Of a DNA stretch of 64,000 nt, positions 4,404 through 29,929 are shown in pieces (the stretch's first letter is position 1; every line of letters starts with the position of its first letter). Origin of the DNA: Chamaelirium japonicum (taxonomy: Eukaryota > Streptophyta > Magnoliopsida > Liliales > Melanthiaceae); the NCBI GenBank assembly GCA_947650365.1, contig OX393550.1, forward strand, positions 100,777,472 through 100,841,471. Reading direction: 5' to 3'. Both the position numbers and the translations under genes were made by a program. The notes under the pieces were generated by a model, which was not told the origin of the DNA, made no database searches, and saw only the letters and a program-made list of their open reading frames with translations.

Positions 4404-4543
4404 TGTTAGGAGATGACGGCTAGAGTTTGGAGAGAATGGAATAGCTCTTCATTAGGGGACCAAGCCCAATATATAAGTACATTATTACATAACGAACCCG
4501 ACCCAACTGTACATAAAACCCGACCCATCTATATACATTAACA
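4404..4543 (-). repeat. 3' LTR of Copia A copy 2
   Basis: 140-bp LTR followed by a purine-rich tract in element orientation (about 4544-4556). Confidence 0.92.
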
Positions 4544-4677
4544 CTCCCCCTCAAACTCACGGTGGATCATATACCGAGAGTTTGCTGATAAAATGCCAGA
4601 AGCGAGCAATTGTCAGGGGCTTCTTGAGGAAGTCAGCAGTCTGCTCCATCGAGTGAATGAATGACAAGAAGATGGTG

Positions 4678-5389
4678 TAAGTGAGAAACTCCTGGCGTAT
4701 CGGAGTTTAACTCAGTTTCGGCGAAGTCGGAGTGCGAAAAGAGGCTTGGAGCGGAGGCTTTGGGCGTGCCCAGAAGAGGGCTGGCGCCTTTGGTGCCAGG
4801 TGTATGGCGCCCAGTCACCGACGAGCACCACCTCCTCTGGTTGGCGCCCTGAGCGCCAATCTCGCGACGGGGTCTACTCTGAGCTACAGGTTGGCGCCCT
4901 GGGCGCTAGGCACGATACGTGCCCGCGTTGGACGCGTTTTTTGCACGGTTTTGTAGGGGTTAAAATAGGGTTTTAACCCTAAACTTTGAAAGGTGGTCAT
5001 TGCGTTTGACGAATCGTTTTAGGGTCTTTCTTCGAGCTTCTCGCTTGTGTTTGAGAGACGAAGAAGATCTTGGATCTTGCGAGGAGATTGATCTCCTTGA
5101 GATCTGGTGGAGCAAGGAAGAAAAAAAGGGTTGTAAACTCCAAGATCTAATTCCATTGCTTCAAGGGCGGTGACCAACACCCGATGAGGTAGGGATTTCC
5201 GAACTGCGTGATCAAATATCTTTGTGTCATGTGGATTGTTTCTTTACTCTATTTTCTCTATGATTATTGGATCGTTCTTTGTGGATTCGATCATTCTCTT
5301 TGGATCGTCGAAGATCCAAAAACCTTAGATCGCTTCCGCGAGCGTGAGGCGGCGGATCGAGACCTCATCTGAGGTGTTCCGCGCCAACA
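4678..5389 (+). repeat. 5' LTR of Copia B
   Basis: About 712 bp, ending GCGCCAACA just before the primer site. The exact left edge is uncertain by about ten bases because this end differs from the 3' LTR. Confidence 0.85.
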
Positions 5390-8300
5390 ACTGGTATCAG
5401 AGCAAAGGTTTTGGAGGGCTTTGCGTCTGATCTGTCAGAGATGTCCGAAGAGAAGACCACCATGGGTAGCATGAAGTTAATCTCAATCCGTTCGACGGGA
5501 AGACCAATTTCACGTTGTGGCAAAGGAAGATGAGGAATATCATGATACATCAAGATCTCCTCATGTACATTATGGGCAAATAGCATGCACCGAAGGAGAC
5601 GACGGCTGAAACCTGGGCGAAAGCCGATTAGAAGGCGATGAGTCCATAGAGCTTCATCTGTCGGATAAAGTCATGTCCAGTTTCATGGAGGAAACATCGG
5701 TTAAAGACATTTGGGATAAGTTGCAGTCGCTGTACATGGGAAAATCCCTCTCGAACAGATTATTCTTGAAGGATGAACTATACGATTTGTGTATGAATGA
5801 AGATGGGGATCTGATGCAACACCTGAACCGGTTCAACTGGTGTATTTTAGATCTTCTGCGGGTCGAGGTGAAGTATGAGAAAGACGACAATTCACTGCTT
5901 TTACTGCAGTCTCTTCCACCGTCTTACAAGCACTTCATGACAACCCTGATGTTCGGCAAGGAGACTCAAGTTTGAGGAGGTTGTCCAGGCGATCATTTCC
6001 CATGCAAAGATGTGCAAGAATACGGGAGAAGATGCGAAGGGTGTGGGACTCGTTGTAAAGAGCTCTCATGAGCACCAAGGCCGATCGAAGGACAGGCATG
6101 CCAGAAGCCAGAGCCGGGATAAGAGCCGTTCGATGTCCAAGGGACGATCGAAGAATCTAAAGTGCTTTTACTGCGGGAAGAAAGGCCACGTCAAGAGACA
6201 TTGCTTCGAGTTGCAAGACGAGACGAAGGAGAAGGGGAAGAAGACGGAGAACTCTGACACAGCGGGTGTCGTTTTGTAGAACGGCGATGCGAGTTGCTCT
6301 TCGTATCTGTAGGTAAATCCTCAGTCAATCCTTGATAGTGGTTGTACGTTCCATATGTGTGCAAACATGGATAGATTCGATACATATGAGGAGAAAAATT
6401 GCGGCGAAGTTCTTATGGGGAACAACGCCTCCTGCAAGGTGGTAGGCATGGAAACAGTTAGATTGAAGATGAATGACGATACGATTCGTTCGCTCGGGAG
6501 CGTAAGACATGTTCCAACTCTCAAGAAGAACTTTATTTCCTTGGGTACTCTGGATGCAAATGGGTACGCTTACTCATCGGGAGATAGGAAGTTTAAGGTT
6601 ACTAAGGGATCACTGGTGGTAATGAGAGGAGAGAGACAGGCGAGCAATCTATACAGATTGTCTGGGAGTACAGTCTTGGGTGGAGCGACAGTCTCCACAA
6701 ACGTCAGTTCAGAGCGAGATCCGGTTTTGCTATGGCATCAGAGGTTGGGCCACATGAGTGAAAATGGGTTGCAGAAACTACACAGAAGGAAGCTGCTGAA
6801 AGGTGTAGGCGAGTGCAAATTGGAGTTGTGCCGATCATGCATCATGGGGAAGCAGTCCAAGGTTTCGTTCAAGTTGGCTTCTACTGAGAAAAGGGCGAAG
6901 GGCGCTCTTGACTACATTCACTCCGATGTTTGGGGACCGGCTCCGACTCGTTCGCATGGTGGAGCACGGTGCTATATCACGTTCCATGATGATTACTCCT
7001 GGAAGGTTTGGGTCTACTTCATGCGTGAGAAATCCGAGGTGTTTGATAAGTTCAAAACTTGGAAGACAGAGGTGGAAAACCTGACGGGGAGGAAGATCAA
7101 GTACTTGAGGAGCGACAACGGAGGTGAATATAAGGATGGAAGGTTCATCAAGTTTTGTCTACAGGAGGGCATTGTCAGGCACTTCACAGTGAAGAAGACC
7201 CCTCAGTAGAATGGCGCTACAGAAAGGATGAACATAACTCTCATGGAGAAAAAGAGGTACATGCGAGTGCATGCAAATCTGCCCGTGTCCTTTTAGGTAG
7301 AGTCGATTAACCATACGTGCTATTTGGTTAATAGATCTCCCTCGAAGCTACTAGAATTCAAGTGTGCCGAGGAGGTATGGTCTGGGAAAGACTTGGATTA
7401 TTCTGCGATAAAGGTGTCCGAATGCAAGGCATTTGCTCTCATCCCGAGCGATGAGAGGAACAGTTGAAGCCAAAGTCGCAGGAGTGCCTGTTCCTGGGCT
7501 TTGAACGAGGTGTGAAGGGCTTCAAGTTGTGGGATCCGAAGAACCGGAAGAAGATCGTCAGCAGAGATATTATCTTTGAAGAGATGATAAGTTCCAGGTG
7601 GGTTCTCAGGAAAAAGAAGGATATGCAGAATGAAGACCCAAAGTTCAAGGCACATTTGGTTGTAAAGGGGTTTGCTCAATGGGAAGGAATTGACTATGAG
7701 GAGATCTTCTCTCCCGTAGTCAAGCATACCTCTATTAGACTGCTACTGGCTCAGGTTGCTCATCATGATATGGAGGTAGAGCAGATAGACGTGAAGATGG
7801 CATTTCTTCACGGGGATCTCGATGAGGAGATCTACATGTCACAACCGGACAGGTTCATTTAAGAAGGTAAGGAGAACCACATGTGCAGACTGAAGAAGTC
7901 GATCTACGGACTCAAGCAGTCACCGAGGCAGTGGTACAAGTGCTTCGACTCGTTTATGGTACCAATCGGTTACTCGAGGGGGATGAATGACTGTTGCATC
8001 TACACTCGCACCTTTGAGGATGGAGAGGATATGACATTGATGCTCTATGTAGACGATATGCTCATTGCATGTCGTGACAAGAGCAAGATAGTCGAACTCA
8101 AAGAGATGCTAAGTAGGGAGTTCGAGATGAAGGATCTCGGGAATACGAGGAAGATTCTCGGCATGGAGATCAGGAGAGACAAAAAGGTCGGGAAGCTCTG
8201 GCTGTCTCAAGGAACCTATATCCAAAAGGTTCTTGAGAGGTTTGAGATAAAGGATGCAAACCTAACCTCTACTCCATTGGCTTCACACTTTGTTCTAGGC

Positions 8301-9047
8301 AAGAGGCAGTGTCCTACGACGGAGAAGGAGATCCAGGACATGCAGAAGACACTATACGCCAGTGCGGTAGGATGTCTTATGTATGCGATGGTTTGCACGA
8401 GGCTGGATCTGGCATAGGCGGTGAGCGTCGTGTCCAGATTCATGTCGAATCCGGGGAAGGTCCATTGGCAGGCGATCAGGTGGATCTTAAGGTACTTGAA
8501 AGGCAGTGCGGACAAAGGGATCTTATTTACCAGGCAAAAGGGAGTGATCAGTATCACGGGATATTCTGATTCAGACTATGCAGTGGATCTTGACGGGAGG
8601 TCTACCATAGGATACGTGTTCACATATGGAGGAGGACCAGTCTGCTGGAGGTCTATGCTACAGTCGGTGACGGTGCTCTCCATTACCGAGGCAGAGTATA
8701 TGGCTGCAAAGGAGGCTATCTGGTTGAAGTGCCTAGCTGGCGAATTGGGACTGAGTCAGAGTTCAGTTACGGTACAGTGCGATAGTCAGAGTGTGATTTG
8801 TTTGGCAAAAAATCTGGTCTTCCATGCAAGGACGAAGCACATCGACATCAGGTATCATAGGATCAGGGACTGACTGGATGATGGTGAGTTCGAGATAAAG
8901 AAGGTTCACATGGATGAGAACGCTTTAGATTTTCTCACGAAGCTAGTTACCAGGGAGAAGTTTGAGCATTGCTCAAGCTTGCTCAAACTTGTCTCCTGCT
9001 AGTGCAGTAGAAAGCACCTCGCCACCTGAGATGCGATGGGGGCGAGT

Positions 9048-9830
9048 TGAAACTCGCCAAGGTGGAGGTTCGTTGGAACGGGAGCATTAACCGAAAGTTC
9101 ACCAGGTGGAGTTTGTCGGAGTTTGGCTCAGTTTCGGCGAAGACGGAGCATGAAAAGAGACTCGGAGCGGAGCCTCTGGGCGTGCCCAGAAGAGGGCTGG
9201 CGCCTTGGGCACCAGGTGTGTCGTGCCTAGTCACTGACGGGCACCACATCCTTTGGTTGGTGCCCTGGGGGCCAGTCTGGGCGCCCAGGGCGCTAATCTA
9301 GCGACGGGGTCTGCTCTGGGCTACAGGTTGGTGCCCTTGGCGGCGCCAGGCACGATACTTGCCCGCGTTGGACGCGTTTTTTGCACGGTTTTGTGGGGGT
9401 TTAAATTGGACTTTAACTCTAAGCTTTGAGAGAGGTGGTCATTGCGTTTGACGGCTCGTTTTAGGTTTTTCTTCGGGCTTCTCGCTTGTGCTTGAGAGAC
9501 TAAGAAGATCTTGGATCTTGCGAGGAGATTGATCTCCTTGAGATCCGGTGGAGCGAGGAAGAAGAAGAGGGTTGTAAACTCCAAGATCTAATTCCATTGC
9601 TTCAAGGGTGGTAACCGACACCCGCAGAGGTAGGGATTTCCGAACTGCGTAATCAAATTTCTTTGTGTCGTGTGGATTGTTTCTTTGCTCTATTTTCTCT
9701 GTGACTGTTGGATTTTTCTTGGTGGATTCGATCATTCTCTTCGAATCGTCAAAGATCCGAAAACCCTAGATCACTTCCGCGAGCGTGAGGCGGCGGATCG
9801 AGACCTCATCTGAGGTGTTCTGCGCCAACA
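9048..9830 (+). repeat. 3' LTR of Copia B
   Basis: About 783 bp, preceded by a purine tract (about 9036-9046) and ending GCGCCAACA at the junction with Copia A RNase H sequence. Confidence 0.85.
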
Positions 9831-12800
9831 TGGCGAACATAGTGACAGTCAATCTCAATATGTTTCGTTCGCTCATGAAAGACCGGGTTGTTAGCAATCT
9901 GTATAGCATTCCGGTTGTCACAAAAGAGAGGAGTGGGCTCAGAGATCACTACTCCCAGTTCTAGAAGGAGGCAGCGAAGCCAGACAATCTCTGCGGTGGT
10001 GGAAGCCATAATCCTGTATTCGGCTTTGGTGTTGGAGCGAGCAACTAACTTATATTTCTTACTACGCTAAGAAATGAGGGAGTCACTAAGAAACACACAG
10101 TAGCCGGTGGTAGAACGGCGAGTAGCAACATCTCCTGCCTAGTCTGCATCGGAGTAGACACGCAGCACTAGCGGAGAGGTGGAAAGGAGAAGCAACTAAT
10201 GGGTGATGGTGCCCCGTAGATAGCGGATGATCCGAAGGACCACTACGTAGTGAACAGAGCGAAGAGCCTGAACAAACTGACTGACAATACCTACAGCATG
10301 AGCAATGTCTGACCTAGTTATAGTGAGATAGACTAGCATCCCAACCAGCCTCTGGTATCTGAAGACGTCCTGGAGAGGCTCACCATCTGTAGAAAGGAGC
10401 TTCAAGTTGAGCTCCATGGGTGTGTTAGTAGTGCGAGAGTCAGTGATAACAGTATGTACAAGGATGTTGGAAATGTATTTCTATTGGGATATCAACAATC
10501 CACGAGCTAACCGAGCAATCTCAAGACCAAGGAAGTAGCGAAGAGAGACTAGATCCTTCATCTCGAACTGACTCAAGAGGTGACACTGAAGGGATGCTAT
10601 GGTAGCACTGTCGTCCCCGGTGATAATCATATCATCCACATACAGAAGCAGAATAGCAAGACCCTGACTGGAGAAGCGAGTGAACAAGGCATAGTTAGAG
10701 TATCGCTCTACAAACCCAGTGACCAGAACTGCACTGTGAAATCGCTCAAACCAAGCACGAGGGACCTGCTTGAGCCCATAGATTTTCCGGCATAGACGAC
10801 AGACGTACCCCGAAGGAGTAGAGATGCCCAGTGGAGGAGCCATATACACCTCTGAGAGGTCACCATGAAGGAAGGCATCCATCTGATAGTGAAGCCACCC
10901 TAGAGCAGCTGCAACAGCTAAAAGGGTACAAACGGTGGTCATCCGAGCAACTAGAGCAAACGTCTCCTCATATTCAATCCCATACTCCTAGGAGAAGCCA
11001 TGAGCAACAAGACGAGCCTTGTGTCGCTTAATGGAACCATCAGGTTGAGTTGCAGCTGATAGGCACCACACCTCAGGGACAAGGAACCAGATCTCAAGTC
11101 TGAGTCCGCTAAAAGGCCTCAAGCTCCACTGTCATGGCCTGTCGCTATTCTAGGTGCAAAACTGTCTCACGGTACGACTGGAGCTCCCGGTAGATATGGA
11201 GAGCAGTAAGAAAGGCCTGGTATAACGGAGAGTAGGAGACAACAGCAGAATATCCAGAGGTGTCAGGAGAAGCAGAGGTAAAAGTAGAGTAGCAAACCTG
11301 TCAAGAAAGTAGCCATATCTGTCAGGAGGGTGTTGTTCGCGTGCAGGGTAGCTCCAAACAGGGCCAGGATCCACAACCAGAGAGGAGGGAGCGACTGCAG
11401 ACGAAGAAGTACCAGTGGAGGCAGTCTTGGTGGGAGTAACTGTGGAGCGCCGAACGTAAACACGCGTGATAGGTGGTAGTGGTTGAGGTGGGGGAGATGG
11501 AGGAGGTGCGGGAGGCATGGTAGGTGGGGGTAGAGGAGGCGGTGAAGAAGGTGGGGGAGTAGACAAAGGGGAGGGCGTAGTAGGGGAAGACGGAGAAAGT
11601 AATGGGAGGGAAAGGAGCAGTGGTAGTGGAGAAGAAAATACAAGCGGCGGTGAAAGAACTTGCGATTCAGTGAAAAAGAACGGGGCATCCTCAACAAAAG
11701 GCGGGAGACACGAATCCGACGAGCCAAGGGATCATAACATCGATAACTTTTGTGCTTCCGACTGAAACCCAAGTGAACACACTTGACAGACTTGGCAGAA
11801 AGTTTATTATACTCATAAGGAGGTAGGAGGACGAAACACGTACACCCAAAGGTACGAAGAAGAGAATAGTTGGGTGGACTGAAGTAGAGACGCTCGTATG
11901 GATTAGTGCCAAAAAAAGAACAGACGATGGAGTAATGTTAATGAGCTGAATATCAGCCATAACAGCTTCAACCCAGTAAGAGTGATGAACCAAAGTAGAG
12001 AGAATGAAAGCTCATGATGTCTGAAGGACATGACGATACTTGCGTTCGGCGACTCCGTTCTGCTCATGGGTGTGGGGACAGGACTGCTGGTAAAGAGTGC
12101 CGTGAGATTGAAGTATCTCACGTATCTCAGAGGAGAGATACTCATTTGCAAAGTCAGATTGAAAGGTCTTGATGCGCCGACCGAATTGGGTATGAAGCAT
12201 AGTGGTGAATATCCGATAAATATGTGGGATCTCAGAATGGTGATGCACAAGATAAACCTAGGTGCATCTCGAGTAATCGTCTATAAAGCTAACATAGTAC
12301 ATAAAACCCAAGAGAGAAACAACAGGCGCAGGACCCCAAATATCATAATGCACTAACTTAAAAAGGGCGGCAGATCGGGAAGCACTAGCAGAAAATAGAA
12401 AAGGTAGATGCGTTGCCAATCTGCAACCCGTACAGACAGAGAGGCGGTAGGACACACGACCCAAAGAGTCCGAATGGAACACGCTTTTTAGTCAATCACT
12501 AGACAAATGACCTAACCTTCTGTGCCACAGGTCAGCATCAGAGGTAACTGACATAACGGACGCAACTGACGAAGGGGAAACATGAAAATGGTCCAGCTGG
12601 TAAAGGCCTGCTTTACGACCCAAACCCATTCCTCTAATCCGTCCGCGAATCCTACACAACACAAGCAGAAGAGGTGAAGGTATAGACAGCCCAGAGTCAC
12701 AAATAGAACTAATAGAAATCAGGTTAATGTTTAGGAGAAGGGCATGATGGACAAAGGGTAAGGCCAGGCGACCAGTGAGATCTGAGATAGTAGTGATGGA

Positions 12801-14439
12801 TCCACACTGCGGAATAGGTACAAGGGTCCTATCCACATTGCGAACCTCCAAATGGGTGGGAGCAAGAGTACAGTCGGTGAGAATAGTAGTCACAGGTAAG
12901 GTGACATTAGGAACTAGAATCGAAGATCTATGGGACAGTAGTACTAGAGATAGCAGACAAACAATGAGCAGGCGAAGAGCCGGTGGAAGAGGTGTCGAAG
13001 AAGTAGCTCCTCGAAGCGCTGAAGACGATCCGGCTCAAGCGGAGGCGGTGCAGTAGTAGCAACAGGAGATACCAGAGTCGCTGTAACAGCGACTGCAGTA
13101 CCACCAAACTGGCAGAAAGGGGGTTGGCCACGTCCATGGCCCCGTCCCTCTCGACCTCCGCATTGGTCGTCACGAGTAGGAGTCCAGCGTGAATCCTGCT
13201 CGTCAGGTCCTCAGCGGGGGTTGCGAGGAGGACGTGTGGGATATTTACGCTTCATGTGACCGGGCTCCTTGCAGTAGTGATAGAAAATAACCCCGTTAGG
13301 AGAGCTGACAGCTAGGGCGTTGTCTGGTTCTAGAGTGGGTGGAGGAGGACGAGTATTCTGAGTCTGAAGGCGAGTCTCCTTGTCGACCAAGGCTAGCAAG
13401 GCATCCTCTAGCCAAGGTAGTGGCTCACGGTCAAGGAGCCGAGCAACAATGAGAGCAAATTCCGACCGAATCGCGGCCAAGAACTGGTGGAGGTGCCCTC
13501 GTCGAGGTAGCGCTTGAAGTCCCTGGAGTGCGGGCAAGCACACCGCTCAGGGATCAGAAAGTCCAGCTCGTGCCAGTAGGCACTCATCAGGCTGAAAAAG
13601 TCATGAATCGTACGCTCCCACATCGCGCATGCCGTAGGGAAGCGACCGATGGGTGCAAGAAGTGGGTGCAAGGTGTGGACGAGCAACAAAATTCAGGAGA
13701 TAGGCCCGGATGACTTGGTTGCCACGTAAGAGCGACCGTGGCAGCAGCAGCAACATGCGACACACCGTTAGCAGCGGTGCTACTGGTGACCGAGGAGGAG
13801 CCGGAGGAGGCATCTGGAGCTGGGTCCTCACCTGTGATGTGACCCCAAAGATCACAGCTGGAGATGACAGCCTCGACGGTGAGCGACCAATTAGGCCAGT
13901 CACTCGCCGAGCATAGCTAAAAGGTGACGGCCTTCAAAGATGGGGTGATCGTAGCAACCGACGACATCAAGGAGAATCAGGAGGGAGACAAGGCGATGCG
14001 GATATGAGGAGGGCGGATGGGGGGGTCGCCGATGATGGAGGAGCGGTGGGTAGGGGAGGCGAGGGGGGCTGCGGGTAGTGGGGGGGATCAGGGAGAGGGG
14101 AGGGGGGGATTGAAGAGGGGACGGTTGCAGGTAGTCGGGGGATAGGGGAGAGGGGAGGGGGGGATCAGAGAGGGACGACTGCGGAGGGGACAACTGCGGT
14201 AAGAGGGGCGGCGGGTAGGGAGGGTGATCAAGTAGGGGGGATCGAAGGGGGAGATTGGGTAGGGGAGATCGGAGGGGGAAATCGGATAAGGGGGGAGGAT
14301 CGGGGAGAGGGATCGATGAGAGAGGGGGGCTGCAGGCAAGGTTTAAAACTCGGGTACCGGTACCGGTATCGGCCGGCGCCGAACCGGTTCGTACCGGTAC
14401 CGGCCGGTTCTGGTTGAACCGGTACCGGCCCCTTTTTTT

Positions 14440-15250
14440 TATTTTTTTTAAATTGTAAAAAAATCTAAAAAAATCTTTAAAAATTCTAAAAAATTAGAAA
14501 ATAAATATAAAAAATTAGAAAATAAATATTAGAGTACTTTAGGCCCTTTAGGGCCCTAGTTTAGGACCTTTAGGTCCTTTAGGCTTAGGGACCGTAGGAG
14601 TTAGTAGAGTTACTTAGGAGTTAGGGTTAGGGCTTAGGAGTTAGAGCCTTAGGCTAGGCTGCTAGGGTTAGTTTTAGGCCTATGAGTCTTATCTTATGTG
14701 ACTTCAGAGTTCAGACTATGACTTATGACTTATGAGTCTTATACTCTTATCTAATGAGTTATGAGTCGACTTATGAGTTATGAGTCTTATGACTTATGAG
14801 TTATGAGTTATGACTTCAAAGTTCAGACTCTCAGAGTTCATACTTTAGAGTTTAGACTTTAGAGTCTTGGATTCATCATTCATCAAGATTCACAACCACC
14901 ACTCCCCGAGGTGTATGATTAAGAATCTTGATGAACTAGTCAACTATTGTCGAATCACCACTCCCCGAGGTGAATGATTGGACAGTAGAGACCTAACTGA
15001 ACCACAAGACTCACAAGTTACAACTTACAACTTACAACTTACAAGTTATAACTCACACCTAACAAGTTACTAATTCCTAATTTCCTATATCCTTTTTCCC
15101 TCCTTCTTTATCCAGGCTTGGGACCGGCCTTGGCGAAGTTAAAAAAGGTTTTTAAAAGGTTTTATAAAACAACCTTTTAAAGTTTTGAAATTTTTTTATT
15201 ATTATAAATTTACAATACAAATTATAGAATAAGTTTCATAATCCAGATTC
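14440..15250. repeat. Left subterminal repeat region of the hAT element
   Basis: Non-coding. It contains runs of short related words: TTAGGCCTTTAGG types at 14530-14680, GACTTATGAGTTATGAGTC types at 14690-14830, and two copies of CACCACTCCCCGAGGTG at 14898-14970. I read it as the 3' flank and subterminal region of the transposon. Confidence 0.6.
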
Positions 15251-15533
15251 CAGACGTGTTCAACACTTCAACTTCCACAAAATACAGATTATCAATATTA
15301 AAATTATTAACTCACCTGGCTGGCTCAGTCGCTCAGATAGTCAGATCAGAAGAATCAGAAGAATCAGAACTCAGAACTCAGAAGTTCCATAGATTATTAT
15401 TGCGATCAGCTTCTTCTTCGTCTTCATTTGGAGTTGGTGCCGAGTAGTGCTACTGGTAGTAAGACCCGTCGGAAGGCCCAGAATAACCGAAGATTGATTG
15501 GCCAATGTCCTGGTCGTGCTGGACACCATAACC

Positions 15534-18477
15534 TTATGCTCCGTAGCCGTAAGATGATGAAGAATCTCCATATGTTCCTTGCGATTCCTCTTGCTCTGGA
15601 AACATCGGCTGATAAGAATCTCGGTAATATGATGATGGTGGACCTAGTGGTGGATCATATCCGTACGAGTATGGTACATATGCAGCTTCATGAACAGTGC
15701 CAGAAGGCCCGGCCCCTGCTCCATCATGTGGTGACAGTGGTGGATGATGTGGATCTGGTGGGGCTGGTGGTCCAGTGACGCCGGTGTACGTGGGAGCACT
15801 AGGAGGTGAAGAAGCTCTCTCATGCTCTCTCATCCGTTGAGATGACTCTCCTCCACCATCACTAGATCCGGAAGGTATACTGCCAAGACTCTCATCTGAA
15901 TCGCTGTTTATCTGCTGCATTGCCTGGCTAACATGTTGAAATCTTCGTTTGCCGCTCCTCAACCTTGCTCCCTCTTGTTCATGTCTTTGCTCCTTGCCTA
16001 ACTCCTTCTCCAACCATGTATTTTCTTGACCGTCAAGAACTGGATCCTCTCTCTCCGTCAACCAAGGGGCTAGAGGGTTATCGTCGTCGAAAATATAATC
16101 CAAATTGATTGGATTATCACCTTGATCCTCTAATCTTCCCTGATCGCGGACCCTCAACCTCATATTGTAATGTACGAAAACTAGTTTATCTAATTTAGAT
16201 GATGACAATCTATTTCTAGTTTTCGTATGAATGAGAGAGAATGTACTCCAGTTTCTCTCGCAGCCCGATGCCGAACATGTCTGACTCAATACTCGGATAG
16301 CAATCTTGCGAAGATCAGGAGCACTTTCACCATGAATGGACCACCAAGTAGCTATAAAATTAGTCAAAAAATAAAACATTCAGTTTGTATTCGTTGATTA
16401 CAATTGGATAATTGTATAATTAAAGTGTTATCAACTTATCGACGTATTACCTGGCTGCATGGTCGAGATAGATGTTCTTGCGTTCTCCGAATCAAAGGAA
16501 CCACGAGCATATCGGAAGATTTCCATTTGCTCCATTGCCTTATTTTGTGCTGCTATGCTAGGCTCCAAGGTTCGGATCACCTCTTTAAGCCCGATCATTA
16601 TTTCTGGGTGTTGTGAAACTTCTACCCTATACTGGTATTGGGGATTTAAGTAAAATCCTATAATATGAAAGAAATAAGTATTGAGTCTAATGACTAATGA
16701 GATTAAAAATTGAAATTGTTAAATAATGAGTATACACTTGACGATAATATTTACCTGCTGCATGCAATGGATGGTGTAGCGTATTCTCCCATCTTTTGTC
16801 GATCAACTTAAAATATTGTTTTTTTGATTTTTCTCCAACCTTTGTCGACTTCTGAATGGCCATCTTAGCTCTGTCCATTGCTTCGTAGATATACCCCATT
16901 GCAGGCTTTTCATCTGAATCTACCAGTCGAAGAACTTGCACTAGAGGTTGGATACACACTATTATCTTGTCAATTTCGACCCAGAGCTCCTTTCCAACAA
17001 CAATATTTTCTACCTCTTTGCCCTCTTCATTAGATGCATATTTTGATTGACACCATGCATCTGAGGTAAACATTTTCCGTAAAGCATCCTTCTGATTAAA
17101 AATGCTCTCCAATGCTATGAAGTGAGTGGCAAAGCGGGTGATTGCTGAACGCAGAAGCTCCCGCTTCCCAGTATACCTCCTCATCAAGTCAACTACCCAG
17201 TTATGGTTGTAAATGAATTTTGTTATTTTTCGAGCTTGTTTTACAACCTTGTCAACATGATCCAATTTGCCTATATCTTTTAGGATCAAGTCGATGCAGT
17301 GTGCGGCACAAGGAGTCCAAAATATAGTCTTCCGTTCCTTCTGTATGATTTGTCCGGCCTTCTTATAGTTAGAGCCATTGTCCGTCACTATTTGGACAAT
17401 ATTATTAGCTCCAACTTCGTCGATAATATTATTCATAAGTCCAGCAAGATATATTGCATCATGCACTTTGGCTGATGCATCGACTGATTTGTAAAATACT
17501 GTACCAATTGAGCAATATACTAGAAAATTAATTATGGATTTTCTAGTAGGGCCACTCTATCCATCGCACATAATTGTGCAACCTTTCTCCTCCCAGGGAG
17601 TTTTAAAACTACTAATATAATCGTTTATTTCGGAGACCTCATCATCTAAAAGTGGCCCAGCAATTTCATATGGGGTAGGGGGAGAAATTCCCGGTCCAAC
17701 CGACTGCAATGTGTCGCACATTTTTTTAAAGTATGGCGACGCGGCTGCATTAGCCGGGATATGATTGAAATGAAAAAATTTGGCCACTGCTTTCTTCACT
17801 TTACTGGCCGCTTGTTTTATTTTTCCAGCTGTTAATTTGGTTTGTTTCTGGCCACGTTCCCTAAACATAAATCCGTCTAGAGGTAACTGCACAGATGTAC
17901 TGCCGCCAGTGCTAGTTTTACCTCCTCTAGCACTAACACTGCTACTACCACCAGGTCCACCTCCACCAGTACTACCACCAATATCACCAGGAAGAAAACG
18001 AGAACTACCACCAGGACCACTCATTGACCATCTACCTCTTTGGTCTCCCCTTCTTTCTCTCATTTCTTGACGACGAGCTTCCTCACGAGAAAGTCTCATT
18101 GCCGTTCTCATCTCCCTATCCTCATCCGGCAACTCTTCAGATGAAGAATCATCAAAACTTTCATCATCTATATCTCTATAACCCCTTACCGACTGACTTT
18201 TGGTAAGGGGTGGTCTTCTAGAAGCAAAAAGTTCAGGAGCAGTACTCTTATCTTTACTTGCTTCTCTAAAAAATTGCTGGAATTGAGACCGTACCTCTAT
18301 TGGAACGTGCTCACAACCAGTCACTTGTCCTTTCTTGCCCGCTAAATGCTCCTTCATTCTTGTGATACCACCATTTATGGTCCGGCCACAGTAGTTGCAT
18401 ATGGCCTTCCGCTTGTTGCCTTCAATTGCCTTGCAATGTAGCCATCCAGCGTCTATCTCTTTCGATTTTGGTGTCAT
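15534..18477 (-). pseudogene. hAT transposase (BED finger, DUF659, hAT dimerisation), one nonsense codon
   Basis: The transposase acts on the element ends. I see three exons on the minus strand: 18477-16755, 16657-16451 and 16351-15534, with GT...AG borders and matching phases, total 915 codons plus stop. N-terminus: BED-type zinc finger (CNYCGRTINGGITRMKEHLA, then C). Next is an acidic and Gly/Ser-rich linker, then the DUF659 and hAT core with MCDG, SGPTRKSIINFLVY, IVTDNGSNYKKAG and PCAAHCIDLIL (the C-x-x-H signature). Exon 3 opens with ATWWSIHGESAPDLRKIA and carries the dimerisation motif SASGCERNWSTF. The tail is Pro/Tyr-rich and ends SSSYGYGA. The only defect I find is TAG at 17554-17556, where hAT proteins have Trp (MCDGW), a single G-to-A change. 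The ATG at 18477 suits the zinc finger start. Confidence 0.88.
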
Positions 18478-18540
18478 TATCTAAGTCAAAAAATAAATAA
18501 GCATTAGCAAATTAGAAAGTAATTGCTCACTTTTGCAGCT

Positions 18541-18680
18541 TTGCTACGTAGAAAGTAGAAAGTAAAAACTATAAAGTTTCGACTTTTAAATGGCTCGAAA
18601 CTCGAAAGTAGAAACTAAAAACTAGAAAGTAAAAAGTAGAAACTAGAAACTAGAAACGTAGAAAGTAGAAACTAGAAAGT
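18541..18680. repeat. Partial extra arm next to the foldback
   Basis: Repeats of the AGTAGAAACTAGAAAGT type plus a GCTCGAAACTCGAAAG segment resemble the right arm of the adjacent foldback in the same orientation. This looks like a shortened duplicate arm. Confidence 0.6.
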
Positions 18681-18685
18681 AGGGC

Positions 18686-19343
18686 CCTCACGTAGATTCG
18701 ACTTTCGAGTTTCGACTTTCGAGCCATTCGAAAGTCGAAACATTTGCAAAAGTGAGCAAAACTGCAAAAGTCGAACCTTTCTAGTTTCTACTTTCTAGTT
18801 TCTAGTTTCTACTTTCTACGTTTCTAGTTTCTACTTTCGAGTTTCTAGTTTCTACTTCTAGTTTCTACTTTCGATTTTCTAGTTTCTACTTTCTAGTTTA
18901 TACTTTCGAGTTTCTAGTTTCTACTTTCGACTTTCGAGTTTATAGTTTCTACTTTCTAGTTTCTACTTTCGAGTTTCGAGTTTCTAGTTTCTCCTTTCTA
19001 GTTTCTACTTTCGAGTTTCTAGTTTCTACTCGAAAGTAGAAACTAGAAACTCGAAAGTAGAAACTAGAAACTCAAAAGTAGACACTAAAAAGTAGAAACT
19101 ATAAACTCGAAAGTCGAAAGTAGAAACTAGAAACTCGAAAGTATAAACTAGAAAGTGAAAACTAGAAAATCGAAAGTAGAAACTAGAAACTAGAAGTAGA
19201 AACTAGAAACTCGAAAGTAGAACTAGAAACTAGAAACGTAGAAAGTAGAAACTAGAAACTAGAAAGTTTCGACTTTTGCAGTTTTGCTCACTTTTGCAAA
19301 AGTTTCGACTTTCGAATGGCTCGAAAGTCGAATCTACGTGAGG
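18686..19343. repeat. Foldback: about 330-bp inverted arms with 4-bp loop
   Basis: The left arm (18686-19030) begins CCTCACGTAGATTCGACTTT and is built of TTTCTAGTTTCTACTTTCGAG units. The right arm (19035-19343) is its reverse complement with small indels and ends CGAATCTACGTGAGG. The loop is CGAA at about 19031-19034. A transcript would fold into a long hairpin. I find no clear target duplication at its borders. Confidence 0.85.
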
Positions 19344-20260
19344 CGTGTCCGTGCTTCCTAGGGGGAAAGTAAGAGGGGAGGCCCTAAAATTACCGACGAA
19401 AAAGAAATGGAAAAACTTGCAACTAAAACAGAGGTGTCCCTCACTATAAATGACCAGCCAAGAAGAAGTAATTGGGAGAAAGCCTGATGGTGATGGTTAT
19501 AAAGATAATATGCAACAAAATGGTGATGGTTATAAAGATAATATGCAACAAAATACTAAACGACTGGGTAGAACATACCAAAATGCCTCACGAACAAAGT
19601 TGCTTACCAAGGCCGTAAAAGGGGTTTATGTTACAACTTACAAGTGAAAAAGATGCAAAAGGAAAATAAGTACTTTATTTAAAAATTCAAAATGCTGCAA
19701 AAAAATGTTTACGACATTCATAGTTTGTGATTTATCAATCAATGTCGATGATGTGATTAAGAGAAAGAAAATGCTAAATAGATTGATAGCATCTTGATCA
19801 CTAAATATGTTTAAACTTTAGCCAGATTTTGTAACACTAGTGCATGCACATACAAGCATAAGCTACGGAGAATCTATAAAAAGAACATACCCAGGTTTAA
19901 GATTTGTTCTTAATAGCTTATTGGATATTACTTATGGTCCAAAACTTTGGACCACATCATGCTGAAAATGATTGTCCTGAAGGAAGACAATACATTATGA
20001 ATTCTCTTTCCTATTCAAGACAGTTCTAAACAAAACCGAGGACAGAAGTGCTGTCATAAGCAATGGTGAACGAAGCTACCTCTTTTAATCCAATGTTTCA
20101 TTATGGATTTAATAGTTGCGCATCCATTTGAGATGCTTCAGGATGTAATTTCGACAATGCAGTTATGCAAGTTTTATATAGAAGGGTCGAGGTCGTCAAA
20201 TAAGGTTCTGTTCAATTTACTATTTTTTTAGAAGATTACTATGCTTACATGTATACTGAA
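19344..20260. other. Unassigned segment inside the hAT element
   Basis: About 0.9 kb upstream of the transposase start. A 33-bp exact direct repeat lies at 19488-19553. No frame exceeds about 65 codons and I recognise nothing. It may be a leader intron or captured host sequence. Confidence 0.4.
19488..19553 (+). repeat. 33-bp exact tandem duplication
   Basis: Two identical copies (19488-19520, 19521-19553). In the plus frame they would read GDGYKDNMQQN twice within a 65-codon frame at 19450-19647, for which I have no evidence of coding. Confidence 0.85.
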
Positions 20261-20329
20261 CTGACTCAAGGCAGTAATCGTTTTACCTTCTTCACTCTTA
20301 AGTTCGTCGCTCGGCCCGCTCGTGCTCGT

Positions 20330-20750
20330 GCCGCTCGTCGTGAGTCTCGTGAGTCGTGACTCGTGAGTCGTGAGTCGTGAGTCGTGACCTCGTCGTCACT
20401 CGTCGGCGTGCGGCTTGTGTCGGTGTGCTGCTCGGCCCGCTCGTCGCCTCTCTTTCTTTCTCTTTCTTTCCTCTCTTCTCTCTTCTCTCTTCTCTCTTCT
20501 CTCTTCTCTCTTTGTTCTTTCTCTCCTCTCTTCTCTCTTCTCTCTTTTCTTTCTCTCCTCTCTTCAGTCTTCTCTCTTTTCTTTCTTTCTCTCCTCTCTT
20601 TCTCTCCTCTCTTTTTTTCTTCTCTTTCTTTCCTCTCTTCTCTCTTCTCTCTTTTTTCTTTCTCTCCTCTCTTCTCTCGTCTCTCTTCTCTCTTCTCTCT
20701 TTTTTCTTTCTCTCCTCTCTTCTCTCTTCTCTCCTCTATTTTCTTGCAAG
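20330..20750. repeat. GTGAGTC repeats and long CT-rich tract in the hAT right end
   Basis: At 20338-20400 are tandem GTGAGTCGTGA words. From 20445 to 20745 the plus strand is almost pure pyrimidine (TCTCTT types). On the minus strand this purine tract would be the 5' leader just downstream of the TATA box. The long Arg/Glu/Lys frame it opens is low complexity and not called a gene. Confidence 0.7.
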
Positions 20751-20793
20751 TTGATGGAAGGTTTTGGAGTTGCAATGGAATGGTTTGGGGGGG

Positions 20794-20801
20794 TTTATAT
20801 A
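20794..20801 (-). promoter_or_regulatory. Putative TATA box of the hAT transposase
   Basis: TATATAAA on the minus strand, about 360 bp inside the right terminus and followed by the purine-rich leader. Position fits a transposase promoter with a long leader to the ATG at 18477; inference only. Confidence 0.45.
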
Positions 20802-21300
20802 GCCTTCAAATCCCCCCCTCCCACTTAAGGAATAAGACTTTTTGGAGGGGCCAAAACTAAAAATGCCACCCCCCCTCCACATGCAAATGCTGGGAAAGCA
20901 TGTTCAGTGGAGGGAGGAATCCAACATAAAAAAATAAAAAAAGTGACCCAAAGCCCACCCACCCCATAATGGCTGTCGGACGGGACTGAACCGGCCGGTA
21001 CCGGTTCGTACCGGCCGGTACCTGCCTGACTCGGCCGGTTCGGTCCGGTACGGGTTGGTACCGGCCGGTTCAGGTCTGTTTCGGTCCCGGGTGCTGGACT
21101 CGGTTCGGCCCGGCCAAATCCGGTACGTACCGGTACCGGCCGAGATTTGAAACCCTGGCTGCAGGTCGCCAGTGAGGGAGGAGCAGGTCGGGGTGTCACC
21201 GGTGAGGGAGGAGGGGGGGACTGTGGGTCGTCGGTGAGAGGTGGGTCGCTGATGTCGTCGTCGCCATCGCAGGAGAAGAAACCCTAGATCTCTGATACCA

Positions 21301-21440
21301 TGTTAGGAGATGACGGCTAGGGTTTGGAGAGAATGAAATAGCTCTTCATTAGGGGACTAAGCCCAATATATAAGTACATTATTACATAACGAACCCGACC
21401 CAATTGTACATAAAACCCGACCCATCTATATACATTAACA
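21301..21440 (-). repeat. 5' LTR of Copia A copy 2
   Basis: 140 bp, bordered on its left by the initiator-Met primer site (minus strand). Differs from its partner at 4404 at four sites. Confidence 0.92.
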
Positions 21441-21452
21441 GCACTTAAACAC

Positions 21453-21592
21453 TGTTAATGTATATAGATGGGTCGGGTTACTTGTACAGTCGGGTCGGGT
21501 TGTATGGTCATACATGTACATATATATTGGGCTTGAGTCCCTCAATAGAGATAATTCCATTCTCTCCAAACCCTAGTCTTCATCTCCTAACA
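21453..21592 (+). repeat. 5' LTR of Copia A copy 4
   Basis: 140 bp, TGTTAATG...CTCCTAACA, the reverse complement of the neighbouring LTR at 21301-21440 apart from scattered differences. Confidence 0.92.
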
Positions 21593-21639
21593 TGGTATCA
21601 GAGCTCTAGGGTTCTCTCGTGCGACGACGGCGACGACGG

Positions 21640-22240
21640 CAGCCCCCCTCCGGCCTCCCTCCACTCGGCAGCCCCTCCTCCGGCCTCCCTCCACCCGGCA
21701 GCCCTCCCCTCCGGCCTTTCCTCCGCCCGGCAGCCCCTCCCCTTCACCCGGCAGTCACCTCCGGCCACTCCTTCACCCGGCAGCCCCCCCTTCGGCCCTA
21801 TCTACACCCCGCAGGCCCCCCCTCCGCCTCCCTCCACCCGACAGCCCCCCCCCCTCCGGCCCCATCTGCACCCCGCAGGTCCCCCCTCCGCCTCCCTCCA
21901 CCTGGCAGCCCCCCCTCCGACCCCATCTGCACCCCGCAGGCCCCCCTCCGCCTCCCTCCACCCAGCAGCCCCCCCTTCCGGCCCCACCTGCACCCCGCCG
22001 GCCCCCCATCCGCCTTCCTCCACCAGGCAGCCCCCCCCTCCAGCCCTATCTGCACCCCGCAGGCCCCCCCTCCGCCTCCCTCCACCCGGCAGCCCCCCCC
22101 TCCGGCCCCATCTGCACCCCGCAGGCCCCCCCCCCTCCGCCTCCCTCCACCCGGCAGGCCCCCCTCCGCCCTCCCCTGCACCCCCGCCCCCTCCTGCACC
22201 CCCCTGAAGCCCCACCGCCCCCTCCTGCACCCCCCCTGAA
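21640..22240 (+). repeat. C-rich leader minisatellite of Copia A copy 4
   Basis: About a dozen units of roughly 45-50 bp built around CTCCGCCTCCCTCCACC and CATCTGCACCCCGCAGG. Both strands are open over much of it (proline-rich or glycine-rich), which follows from composition. Confidence 0.85.
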
Positions 22241-22260
22241 GCCCCATCGCCCCCCCTTCT

Positions 22261-23372
22261 CCTCTGTACGGACTGCCTTAGACCTCCCTTGTGCCGGCTC
22301 GCCCCCGTACTTCAGGGGTATGGCATGTTGCTGCTACTGCCTTAGACCTCCCTTGTGCCGGCGAGCCAGTAGCACCGCTCTCTTATACTATAGTTGAGTG
22401 AAGCCATCTATTCTCAGATTTCTTGGTTTGCTCATGCTGTAACAATTGCCTAATGTCTTTGTTCTTATTTTTTATCAGGTAGATTGATTATTGGCGGTTT
22501 GGCTCATTTTCATAATTGTGAATTGTATAAGGTTGCCTAATCCAGTTATCTTCCTTTAGCCGGTGAAAATCGTATAAGATCCTATTTAACCTACCAAGTT
22601 CTCCCTTTATTCGGGGAAGTTCCTTTTTGTGGCAAGGTGCTAGCTGAAGCAAGGCTGTGACCTGCAGGATTGAGTTGTAGAATAGAATTAAGAGTTTGGT
22701 TTAGTTAGCCGATGTTATGTTAAATATTGGTAATATTATAGTGTGTCACAATCCCTGGCAATGGGTATATGAAGACGTGGAATCCGCTCTCCCATTACCA
22801 ATGTGGGACTATCCGCTCAACAAGAACTACCAGTCCTATTTGTTAAAAGATTATTACACGGACTTTTTTCTTGCGTTGTGTGTCGTCTTTTTTACCAAGA
22901 TCAAGATCCTGTTACTTGTTATTGAAATCAAGCATTGTGAAAAGAGTGACATGTCAAACTTTTTGTGCCCTAGAAAATTTGGACCTATGGATAAAAAATG
23001 AACATTAACAAACTGCTAAAAAATGGAAGACCGGCGTCACTAACCTATGTAACATGATCTTCCTTAGAAAGTATTTGGATTGATCTAACTGAAAAGGAAA
23101 GGATCATTATTCGGTTTTCCTTCCAACTATCATGAAAAACTACATGATTTTATATGGTAAAAACAGGACAGGTACGATAGAAGAAATTACTTGAGGTGAG
23201 TGCTAAAAACATTGTTGTTCGATGTTCTCATTCACAGTTCATGATCTATGATGATTTCTCAATCATGAACTTATTGTAATCTTTATAGGTTTGAGGGGCC
23301 ATAGATTGCAACTGATGGATTAAATTTAGGGTTGGTATGTCATTACTAACGCATATTTTCTTTGCAATGAAG
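22261..23372 (+). other. 3' part of the large NF-YA intron
   Basis: Two copies of ACTGCCTTAGACCTCCCTTG lie at about 22270 and 22338. A short LTR-like remnant with TGTGGGACTATCCGCTCAAC lies at about 22735-22835, similar to the TRIM at 26392. The rest is AT-rich intron ending in the AG acceptor at 23371-23372. Confidence 0.55.
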
Positions 23373-24510
23373 CAAGGACGAGTGCTTCTACCATTGAATA
23401 TTACAGCGGATGGTCCAATTTATGTGAATGCAAAGCAGTATAATGGAATCGTCAGGCGTCGACAGGCTCGCGCTAAGTTAGAGATGAAGAACAGAATGAT
23501 CAAAGTTCGGAAGGTATATGTATCTCATATGTATTATGAAAATCATAATATTGAATACTTTTGCATTTTTTTAAATTAAAAATTATAATTTGGGTGCTTC
23601 AAGGTGCTATTAAACTACGTAATATCCTTAGAAGTCATGGAATTAGAAAGTTCTACTTTAATTATAACTTTTCAACTTAATTTTTTTTTTGCTTGCATAC
23701 TCTAAATTCAACCTTCTCTTTACCTAAAAAGGAAAAAAAACTGAAGTTCTGAATAATACATATATCAACTCAGTGAAAAGAAAATAATGTATGACGTCAA
23801 AGTGGAAAGTATTCAAATCAAGCTAAATGACTACTTCCCTACTGTCATATGCTATGTCAATTTTTCGACAGTGGTATATGTCTAAGGATCATATAACAAG
23901 GATTAAAATGGCCTCTAAATTGTTACTAGAACGAACATTAGGTCTCTCTGATGTACCCGTATCGTAGTTTTGATTTGATTTTTCCCTTTTTTGTAGCCAT
24001 ATTTGCACGAGTCGCGTCACCTCCATGCAATGCGCCGCGCAAGGGGATGCGGCGGCCGCTTCCTGAACACCCAAAAGGAAGTGATCAGACAAGGTGGGAA
24101 CCTAACCCCCCCACCCCGCGTTCGTGCGGGCATTTAGTTGTACTTTTGGTTCTCTTACTATTTCTAATACAGGTCGGGGTCTGCTTAAACCCCCCGGAGC
24201 TATTCTAAAAAAAAAAGGTGGGAGCGGCGGTGGCAAGGCAAGGGGCGCCAGGTCCTCAGTTCATCCCACCACATCTCCAAGTTCCGAGGTCCTGCAGTCC
24301 GATAGCGGGAATCTCAACTCAGGAAGTGGCGGGTCATCGGAGGTGACGAGCATGTACAGCCGGGAAGAAGTCGATCACTTTCAGTTCATCGAGCACCTCC
24401 GCCCGCCTACCTTTCAACCTCTGTCGAACATGATGGACGGAGAGCACGACACAGTCATCCCTTCGAAGTGGGGGGCGGCAGCTGATGGCTGCTATGACCT
24501 GAAAGTATGA
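23373..24510 (+). CDS. NF-YA: NF-YA core and C-terminal exons
   Basis: Exon 23373-23513 encodes the NF-YB/NF-YC interaction helix: [20 protein letters not shown] then [14 protein letters not shown]. Exon 23997-24093 encodes the DNA-binding part [20 protein letters not shown] followed by [12 protein letters not shown], with all signature His/Arg/Gly residues. The intron after VRK is at the site conserved in plant NF-YA genes. The coding sequence resumes after a 117-bp insertion, at 24218 (or 24173 if part of the insertion is exonised), and runs to TGA at 24508-24510, ending [10 protein letters not shown]. The usual QYHG His is Asn here. The frame is otherwise clean, and a miR169 site follows in the 3' UTR, so I expect a working gene if the 19-kb intron is spliced. 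Confidence 0.92.
24100..24216 (+). mobile_element. Short poly(A)-tailed retroposon inserted in NF-YA coding sequence
   Basis: 117 bp flanked by exact 7-bp copies GGTGGGA (24093-24099 and 24217-24223) and ending in ten A residues, as for a SINE or a 5'-truncated LINE-type insertion. I see no convincing pol III A box, so the class is open. The left duplicate supplies a 5' splice site (CAAG|GTGGGA). A pyrimidine tract with CTAAT and CAG at 24170-24172 gives a strong acceptor inside the insert, and AAAAG|GT at 24217 a weaker one. Splicing to either keeps the NF-YA frame. Confidence 0.75.
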
Positions 24511-25160
24511 GGACATAGGCATTGGGGAATGGTGGTTATCCAGATGGAAGCATGTTCAGTGCCCGCAGCCTATCGCGACCCCTTCCCTGAGCTTGCTGCA
24601 ACCAGATGAAAGAGCTGGCCACAGTTTTGGTCGAGGGATCGTCCCTGGCAATCATTTGGTTGTTTTCTGAAGGCAATTCATTCTTGGCTTTTCTGCATTG
24701 AGGTCCTTTCTCATCACTTACACTGACCCTGGAGCTCTAGCAGTTCCTTGTCAGTTATGATGCTGAAAGTGCTCCATGCCTTGTAAAAATTTGAACTTGT
24801 ATGTTATTATTTGAACCAGAGTTAGGGACTGGTTATGTTTGTAACCATGGTATGATTGTTGACATCTAAATGTTTTGGGAGCTTATTTGCCCTGAAGTTC
24901 AAGGTTTAATCCCTTTGGCATCATTGTTGTTGTTGTTCATGAAGTGATCTTTTACCATTTGAGCACTTGGAGCTTGCATGTTTTGTCGTCGTAGATTCTG
25001 TTTTGCGATGATGGTGTGATTAGTAGTTCTTTACTCGTTCGCCTGGTCGGGGAACATTGGAGGGTTGCTCCCTGATCGCATGAGTTGAAACTATATAACC
25101 AACAATGTAGGTCTCTCTATCCACCAACTGGCCTTTTAGATTTGCACAGAGACTTGACAT
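24511..25160 (+). other. NF-YA 3' UTR and downstream
   Basis: Contains the miR169 site at 24670-24690. T-rich sequence follows. No coding potential and no single clear poly(A) signal that I would assign. Confidence 0.6.
24670..24690 (+). promoter_or_regulatory. miR169 target site
   Basis: AAGGCAATTCATTCTTGGCT plus T pairs with the miR169 family (complement of UAGCCAAGGAUGACUUGCC): continuous pairing over the miRNA 5' seed, one G:U pair near the cleavage site and one inner mismatch. It lies about 160 bases after the stop, where plant NF-YA mRNAs are known to carry this site, so the mRNA should be cleaved under miR169 control (drought, nutrient and developmental regulation in other plants). 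Confidence 0.88.
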
Positions 25161-27122: not shown

Positions 27123-29929
27123 TCAGAAACGGTTAGACAATGATCTCTTATGTGTACTGTTAGAAGATGACCGGGGAGGAGGGGGCAGCAGCATCAAGCG
27201 AGGGAGTACCAATGTGAACCGACTCTGGAGGAGGAGCTGCAGACCGATGAACATAGACACGAGTAACAGGTGGTGGTGGAGGCGGCAAGGGAGACGGGGG
27301 AGGTGGTGGTGGTGGTGGTGGTGGTGGAGGTGGCGGGGAAGATGGAGGTGGAGTAGGCGTGGATGGGACAACAGAAAACGGGGGTAGAACGGGGATGTGG
27401 AGATGTGATGAAGGTGAGGAGGGTGACGCATAAGGCAAGGAAAGATCCCGAGACTCAGGGAAAAAGTACGTGACATCGTCAACAAAGAAAACGTGATGGG
27501 AGATACGGATCTGGCGAGCCAAGGGATCGTAACAACGATACCCCTTGTGCTCCCGACTGAGCCCCAAGTGAACACACCTAACAGACCTCGCAGAGAGTTT
27601 GGTGCGCTCATGGGGAGGAAGAAGAACGAAGCAAGTGCAGCCAAACGTGCGAAGAAGAGAGTAGTCGGGTGGGCTGGAGTAGAGGCGCTCATATGGGGTG
27701 GCACCGGACAGAGCAGACGACGGAGTGATATTGATGAGGTGGACAGCCGTCATGACAGCTTCAGCCTAGTATGAGTGAGGAACAGATGCAGAGAGAAGCA
27801 AGGCTCGTGCGGTCTCAAGGACATGACGATGCTTGCGTTCGAAAACACCGTTCTGCTCATGGGTGTAGGGACAGGACTGCTGGTGAAGAGTGTCGTGAGA
27901 CTGAAGAATCTCACGTATCTCAGAGGAGAGATACTCCTTGGCACAATCAGACCGAAAGGTCTTGATGCGCCAACCAAACTGAGTGTGTATCATAGTGGTA
28001 AATCTCCTAAAGATATGAGGGACTTCAGACCGATGACGCATAAGATAAACCCAGGTGCACCTAGAATAGTCATCGATAAAACACACATCATACATGAAAC
28101 CCGAAATAGATGCAACAGGAGCAGGACCCCAAATGTCCGAATGTACTAAGTCAAATAAAGCATCAGATTGGGAAGCACTAGCAGAGAATGGAAGAGCTAG
28201 ATGCTTTGCCAGTCTACAACCCGTACAAACAGAGAGGGGGGAGAAGGACGCTCGACCCAAAGCGCCCGAACGGAATACGCTTTTGAGTCGATCACTCGAT
28301 ATATGACTTAACCTTCTGTGCCACAGGTCGGCATCAGAGGTAACAGACATGACAGACGCAACAGGAACGGAAGACACATGTAGATGGTCTAGCTGGTAAA
28401 GTCCTCCTGCTCTACGGCCCAGCCCAATCCTCTGATCTGTCCACGAATCCTGCACAACACAAACAGAAGGGGTGAAGGTGACAATCAGGCCAGAGTCGTA
28501 AAGAGAACTGATAGAGATCAGATTAATGTTAAGACGGGGGGCATGATGAACATGGGGTAGGGTCAGGCGACCAGAAGGGTCAGAGGTAGTAGTGATGGAT
28601 CCACATTGCGGAATAGGGACAAGAGTCCCATCCGCAGTGCGAACCTCTTGGTGGGTGGTAGTGGGAGAACAGTCAGTGAGGACAGTGGAGTCAAAGGTGA
28701 GGTAACAGGAGGCACCCGAATCGAAGATCCATGGAGCAGTAGTACCAGAGGTGGCAGACAAACCATGAGCAGTCGCGGAGCCGGTGGAGGCTAGGTGGCA
28801 AAGAAGGAGCTCCTCGAGGCGCTGAAGACGGTCTGGCTCAGGCTGAGAAGGTACTGTGGTAGCAGTGGGGAGCGTCGAGGCCTCTACAGTAGCCGTTGTA
28901 CCACCAAAGTGGCGGAAGGAGGACGAACCACGTCTGCGGCTCCGTCCACCTCGACCGCCGTGTCGATCGTCGCGGGAAGCTGAAGCCCAGCGTGGGGCTC
29001 TCTCATCCGGACCCCAGCGGGGGTTGCGTGGAGGACGTGTAGAGCATTCACGCTTCATGTGTCCGGGCTCCTTGCAGTAATGACAGAAGACAGCCTCATC
29101 AGAGAACCCGGCCGCCAGGACAGTGTCGGAGCTAGAAGCAAGTGGAGGAGGACGAGCACCCTGAGTCTGAAGGCGGGTCTCCTCATCGACCAAGGCGAGT
29201 AGAGCATCCTCTAGCCGAGGGAGTGGCTCACGGTGCAGGAGCTGAGCAGCGATGAGAGCAAAGTCCGGTCGAAGCGCTACCAGGAACTGGTGCAGGTGGC
29301 CCTCATCGAGGTAGCGCTGGAAATCCCGAGAGCGAGAGCAAGCACACCGCTCCGGAATTAGGGAGTCCAGCTCATGCCAGTATGCACTCATCAGGCTGAA
29401 AAAGTCCTGAATCGTGCGCTCCCCCTGACGTGTAGACTGTGAGTCACAAATAAGCTGATGCCGGCGTGCGCCGCCACGTGGGAGAAACCAGTCCCGGAGA
29501 TACTCCCACATCGCACGCGCTGTAGGAAGGCGATCGATGGGAGCAAGGAGCAGACGAGCAACAGAGTCCAGGAGATAGGCCCGAATGGCCTGATCGTGAT
29601 GTCGCCACGTGAGAGCAGCAGCCGTGGCTGCTGTGGGAGTAGTCGGGACAGTAGAAGTCGCAGTAGAGGACGCGGCACTGCTGGTGACAGAGGAGGAGCC
29701 GGAGAGGACAGCTGGAGGAGGATCATCGCCGGTGATGTGACCCCACAGATCACGACTGGAGAGTGCGACCGATGACAACTGAAAGGCGATCGCCTTCAGC
29801 GGTGGAGAGATCGCAACGACGAACGACAAGGCAGGAGAAGCCATGGAGGAGGCTCAACAGAGGGGGGAACCGGGAGAGGTTATCGGGCGAAGGGAAAGGG
29901 GCGGGTGGGCTGAGGGAAGGGGTGGGAGG

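Follow-up and report, generated by a model that had tools for sequence, protein, structure and literature searches.

The window analysed here, a 64,000-nucleotide stretch of the Chamaelirium japonicum genome (C2:100777472-100841471, in an assembly of 1.52 Gb and 3253 contigs), carries all but the first coding exon of an NF-YA gene on its forward strand, to which the features below belong unless noted. The exon borders are our own reading rather than an annotation. Coding exon 1, which contains the ATG, falls outside the window on its upstream side (C2:100775888-100776170) and is homologous to a frame upstream of the sister gene on contig C4. Exons 2 (3669-3784) and 3 (3897-3965) are open frames recognized by homology to the same C4 gene, exon 2 being three codons shorter than that of its sister, and exon 4 (23373-23513) encodes the first part of the CBFB_NFYA domain (PF02045, E 3.3e-12) and was matched in the genome search. 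The last coding exon is divided by an insert. Its first part (23997-24093) completes the DNA-binding domain (when spliced, the last exon matches PF02045 at E 2.3e-9), and its second part (24218-24510) runs open to a TGA stop codon.

Downstream of the stop codon, the 3′ UTR contains a 21-base stretch (24670-24690) that is the same at 21 of 21 positions in the C4 gene, and the core of which is also present in four of the six other NF-YA loci searched. We take this stretch to be a miR169 target. A literature search combining NF-YA, miR169 and transposon insertion, judged by titles and the beginnings of abstracts, returned nothing on point.

The surroundings of these exons are rich in repeats. The intron at 3966-23372 spans about 19 kb, against some 4 kb for its counterpart in the sister gene on C4. 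Judging from the look of their frames, we assume that 6313-7209 within it is a copia-like polyprotein fragment and that 15534-18480 (minus strand) is a hAT-transposase-like gene in pieces. The same intron holds heptamer arrays at 18597-19265 (GAAACTA, TTTCTAG and then ACTAGAA, the last two of which look complementary by eye), as well as pyrimidine-rich tandem arrays at 20448-22254, in which a 48-bp TC-rich unit is followed by a 62-bp C-rich unit present in roughly 7-9 copies. Beyond the gene, a 695-aa open frame on the minus strand (27766-29853) presumably represents a copia gag-protease-integrase-like region.

Origin of the insert

The insert itself occupies 117 bp (24100-24216), ends in ten A's and is bracketed by exact copies of GGTGGGA (24093-24099 and 24217-24223). 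Counting the final two tail A's as target bases lengthens the duplicate to the 9 bp AAGGTGGGA (24091-24099 and 24215-24223). A poly(A)-ended insert between exact 7-bp duplicates had been proposed in a sequence-only reading of this DNA, and its coordinates, lengths and frames are borne out here. Inverted repeats of at least 7 bp were absent from 24087-24230, and Rfam returned no structured RNA in 23900-24400 at E values up to 1. Within the insert, a near-repeat is present at 24103-24112 and 24186-24195 (TAACCCCCCC and TAAACCCCCC), one unit of which falls in the part of the insert that lies outside most of the LINE alignments described below.

Several lines of evidence identify the insert as the tail of a LINE. 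A genome-wide DNA search with the insert returned two further sites that resemble its 3′ part at 82% and 78% (E 2.6e-9 and 1.1e-7), and pattern searches added copies at C9:36178453 and C326:6536. In pairwise alignment, the insert follows the 3′ ends of five decayed elements (C1:82296628, C9:60821145, C9:36178453, C2:59081227 and C326:6536) from approximately base 34 (base 25 in one case) to the poly(A), while its first ~33 nt match no LINE copy in four of the five alignments. The nearest copy, C1:82296628, has a zf-RVT domain upstream (Pfam on its frame, E 6.8e-17). Across five LINE pieces scanned with Pfam, zf-RVT was found in two (one of them weak, E 0.013) and nothing in the other three, the reverse transcriptase domain itself being found in none. 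A SIWLERN.RIF-like motif, which we take to be typical of plant LINE ORF2 ends, lies upstream in three of the five copies (C1:82296628, C2:59081227 and C9:36178453), and C9:60821145 has only a doubtful version of it (the scan covered the four aligned copies on C1, C2 and C9). With a related LINE as query, 49 matches were obtained; in 18 of them, counting the query's own, the match reaches to no more than 8 bases from the query's 3′ terminus, as expected of 5′-truncated LINE copies.

The insert also has the anatomy of target-primed reverse transcription, namely a poly(A) of ten A's, a target duplicate of 7-9 bp and 5′ truncation, with only 117 bp present. Because its 3′ part matches genomic LINE 3′ ends, and because the C4 sister gene has no insert at this position, a chance resemblance does not explain it, and we regard the sequence as almost certainly a LINE insertion, specifically a truncated LINE tail as judged from its anatomy. 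Of the sequence-only reading's designation, “transposon-born” is upheld for the insert, whereas “introner-like” is not supported, the insert being a LINE's truncated tail rather than one of an intron-generating family. The exact tail pattern gave 13 rows corresponding to four distinct places in 1.52 Gb, including that of the window (the reversed control gave 1), although for repeats these counts and those of the DNA search are lower bounds.

Among the other LINE copies, one (L003) shows a 10-bp repeat 491 bp apart, which may be its own target duplicate; in the remaining copies just 7-8 bp repeats, or none, were seen. The two nearest LINE copies lie antisense and, by eye, adjoin apparent gene exons. 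An attempt to date the insert through a close source copy failed, as the best copy is only 82% alike. As a separate observation, bases 1000-1129 of the LINE query L047 recur as a 130-bp piece (75-78%) at 13 further sites, and five of these lie ~230-250 kb from contig starts (C5, C6, C7, C31 and C44), which suggests that this piece rides in another repeat.

The insert-free sister gene and constraint on NF-YA

Searching the genome with PF02045 yielded 16 matches to exons, spread over eight loci. Each of the 16 matches covers one half of the domain and none joins the two, so that no intronless retrocopy was found by this route. The last exon is open past the position of the insert in seven of the seven other NF-YA loci; only that of the C4 sister is close enough to be aligned across the site, and it is free of the insert. 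Two of the loci, at C1:72.59 Mb (L011/L016) and on C315 (L010/L017), are almost identical to each other and may represent a single gene in two haplotypes, perhaps unmerged in the assembly. This pair is counted among the seven of seven and also contributes to the 12 donors and the 12 acceptors used for comparison below.

Excluding exon 1, comparison with the C4 gene gave a Ka/Ks of 0.173 over the 141 codons before the insert (Ks 0.58) and of 0.147 over the 93 aligned codons after it (Ks 0.75; bootstrap 0.07-0.30). On the strength of these ratios and the identical 3′ UTR stretch, the sequences indicate that the gene was constrained through most of the period following the duplication. A comparison of paralogues reports on the whole of that period (Ks 0.65), and the insertion may be younger than most of it. 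We also considered a pseudogene, a reading that is not supported, as 332 codons are open and constrained.

Candidate splice sites and competing outcomes

The frame joined from ATG to TGA allows three outcomes. With the 124 nt from 24094 to 24217 removed it comprises 332 open codons; with the internal CAG as acceptor it comprises 347; and with the insert retained it stops after 249. The first two are the in-frame candidate splice outcomes proposed in the sequence-only reading, and both hold: removal of 24094-24217 restores the codons CAA GGT GGG AGC, and removal of 24094-24172 keeps the frame and adds 15 codons. The in-frame TAG that the third outcome would reach (24135-24137) was absent from that reading.

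With respect to the donor, the left duplicate contains the candidate 5′ splice site AAG|GTGGGA (24093|24094), which is strong as judged by pairing with U1. Measured as the duplex energy with the U1 5′ end, the site AAG|GTGGGAAC reaches -8.8 kcal/mol, the best of the exon's 28 GTs (tied by its own right-hand copy), and a value that two of the 12 real NF-YA donors attain, as do 1.2% of the 6752 GTs across the window. Among AGGT sites only, 7.6% of 488 pair as well with U1. The pairing includes two G-U wobbles, and the site departs from the usual A at +3 and +4.

Acceptors were described by the U and pyrimidine fractions over the preceding 20 bases. The internal CAG at 24170-24172, preceded by a pyrimidine tract, has U 0.55 and pyrimidine 0.75, within the range of the 12 real NF-YA acceptors (U 0.45-0.70, pyrimidine 0.45-0.85), whereas the values for the AG that closes the poly(A), U 0.20 and pyrimidine 0.35, are lower than those of any of the 12. 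That a stronger acceptor lies inside the insert was part of the original claim and stands; the CTAAT offered in its support does not, since its distance to the AG, only ~5 nt, is shorter than expected of a branch point. The nearest alternative by eye is CTTAC (24154-24158), ~15 nt from the AG, and the branch point is accordingly the weak part of the candidate 79-nt intron. At 51% A+T, compared with 41% in the exon flanks, this intron would also be only modestly A+T-rich for a plant.

The acceptor motif is shared by other members of the LINE family. The exact sequence CTAATACAGG is present in three of the six other copies compared (L002, L003 and L065) and a TAG version, CTAATATAGG, in L022, while the CAG is missing in the remaining two, where L047 reads CTAACACAAG and L042 reads CTAATAATGG. 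In these sequences, the site is common in the family and is not fixed.

Taken together, these observations lead us to favour, at about even chances, a candidate intron at 24094-24172 that ends with the LINE's own CAG. It is preferred because the internal CAG resembles real acceptors, the AG after the poly(A) falls below all 12 of them, and two other AGs precede the latter. According to this model, a LINE transcript would have been reverse-transcribed into the last exon of NF-YA, with the last 117 bp alone copied and the target AAGGTGGGA duplicated, as the anatomy suggests. The left target duplicate would then provide the 5′ splice site AAG|GTGGGA, and the LINE tail would supply both the pyrimidine tract and the 3′ splice site (TTCTCTTACTATTTCTAATACAG|GT), a motif common to several other copies. 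The 45 nt of LINE that follow (24173-24217) would be kept in frame, giving NF-YA 15 additional residues just after its DNA-binding domain, including three lysines encoded by the poly(A) tail. Both the splicing and the choice of acceptor are what we infer from these signals. In terms of protein structure, the best PDB match (Arabidopsis NF-YA6, 6r2v) aligns up to query residue 142 and the junction follows residue 141, so the added residues would directly follow the structured DNA-binding part, with the C-terminal region remaining in frame.

The main rival to the 79-nt intron is that the insert is retained, or that the transcript is polyadenylated early, yielding an NF-YA of 249 residues from a recent and possibly still polymorphic damaging allele. 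We judge this to be a tentative possibility, appreciable but on the doubtful side. The unspliced frame would stop at residue 249, 13 codons past the junction, leaving the DNA-binding domain intact and removing the last 96 residues, and the C4 sister gene could cover such a loss. In Arabidopsis, seven new ONSEN insertions led to partial exonization with early termination or new starts (PMC12112155). The perfect duplicate and unbroken run of ten A's fit a recent event, yet the nearest LINE copy found is 82% alike and gives no sign of a very recent source. Retention is further opposed by a strong donor and an acceptor of normal appearance, which are correctly ordered and in frame, and by a downstream frame that is intact and whose divergence is constrained.

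Exact removal of the insert (24094-24217), with both splice sites drawn from the duplicated AGGT and the protein left unchanged, appears improbable to us. It would restore the original codons and corresponds to a published model of intron gain, as outlined in a review (PMC3443670). Its acceptor in the right duplicate, AAAAG|GT, is however weak: AAAAAAAAAAG has no pyrimidine tract and consists of ten A's and a G, and its use would require passing over two AGs that lie nearer (24171-24172 and 24198-24199). The junction at the internal CAG is far better, and precise removal is less likely. We hold it very unlikely indeed that the insert is an introner, that is, one copy of an intron-making transposon family spreading in the genome. 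The donor derived from the target duplicate and the clean fit to the frame would suit such an element, although a target duplicate is a feature common to LINEs too. However, each copy recovered is a LINE 3′ end, and at least three of the five aligned have remnants of coding sequence upstream; the exact tail pattern was matched at the four places given above, a lower bound; no inverted ends of 7 bp or more were seen, such DNA-transposon signs being present in most introner families though not in every one; and no second copy was seen as a coding-sequence intron among the copies found. An introner family was rejected on copy number and LINE homology.

Landing places and known transposon-born introns

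How readily such an insertion would be tolerated was gauged by placing this fragment, in sense orientation, at 329 exon positions in turn and accepting donors of -7 kcal/mol or better. The unspliced frame was open at none of the 329. Bypass in frame via the CAG was available at 19 of them (5.8%), whereas, varying with the length of the duplicate, 4 to 9 (1.2 to 2.7%) allowed the exact route; with the fragment in antisense, the exact route was available at 2 to 8 of 329 and the CAG route at none. The observed landing place permits both routes, which hints that it reflects the survival of a tolerable insertion. Roughly 6% of random landings would be as good by the CAG route, and chance may account for it.

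Introns born from transposable elements are already known, and the NF-YA insert is a candidate new member of this class. In the rice catalase gene CatA, a p-SINE1-like intron was reportedly described by Iwamoto (1998, 1999) as a plant retroposon thought to have turned into an intron of a conserved gene. That case involves a SINE whose splicing is reportedly established, in contrast to the truncated LINE tail and candidate splicing of NF-YA. Giroux (1994) is said to have described a Ds-made intron in maize, in which a transposon in coding sequence is removed as an intron with the help of duplicated target bases; Ds is a DNA transposon, whereas the NF-YA insert is a retroposon. Among the open-licence papers that the literature searches returned, there was neither a LINE-born plant intron nor a plant LINE tail with its own acceptor.

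The review mentioned above counts transposon insertion among seven purported ways in which introns are gained, describes AGGT acting as donor and acceptor, and cites indirect evidence from Oryza, Zea and others, with no in vivo demonstration at the review's date (PMC3443670). Introners have donors that can come from the target duplicate, can carry the acceptor themselves and, in some instances, add codons (12 bp in Aureococcus); 59.2% of 130 introner families have target duplicates, inverted repeats or both, read there as DNA transposition (PMC9860276). The NF-YA insert is like these in its 5′ splice site from the duplicate, its carried 3′ splice site and its potential added codons, but introners form many-copy families and the NF-YA insert is a single LINE fragment (PMC9860276). 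ONSEN insertions in Arabidopsis, one exonic insertion included, are spliced out as new introns (PMC12112155). The likeness is that of an exonic retrotransposon serving as an intron, here as a candidate only; ONSEN is a full-length LTR element followed in cDNA reads (PMC12112155), whereas the NF-YA insert is a 117-bp LINE tail known from genomic sequence.

A broader and more speculative view, which we consider unlikely, is that this LINE family carries half an intron ready made in its 3′ tail, of which NF-YA would be a caught example. Several copies have a candidate 3′ splice site ~34 nt before the poly(A), and a short truncated copy landing in sense at an exonic AGGT could become an intron at once, with the duplicated target as its donor. 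If this were true, each such event would add a short lysine-ended peptide, and in NF-YA the product would be an altered transcription factor. For the question of how introns arise, this locus offers the element, the duplicate, the insert-free sister gene and the two candidate splice sites together in readable form.
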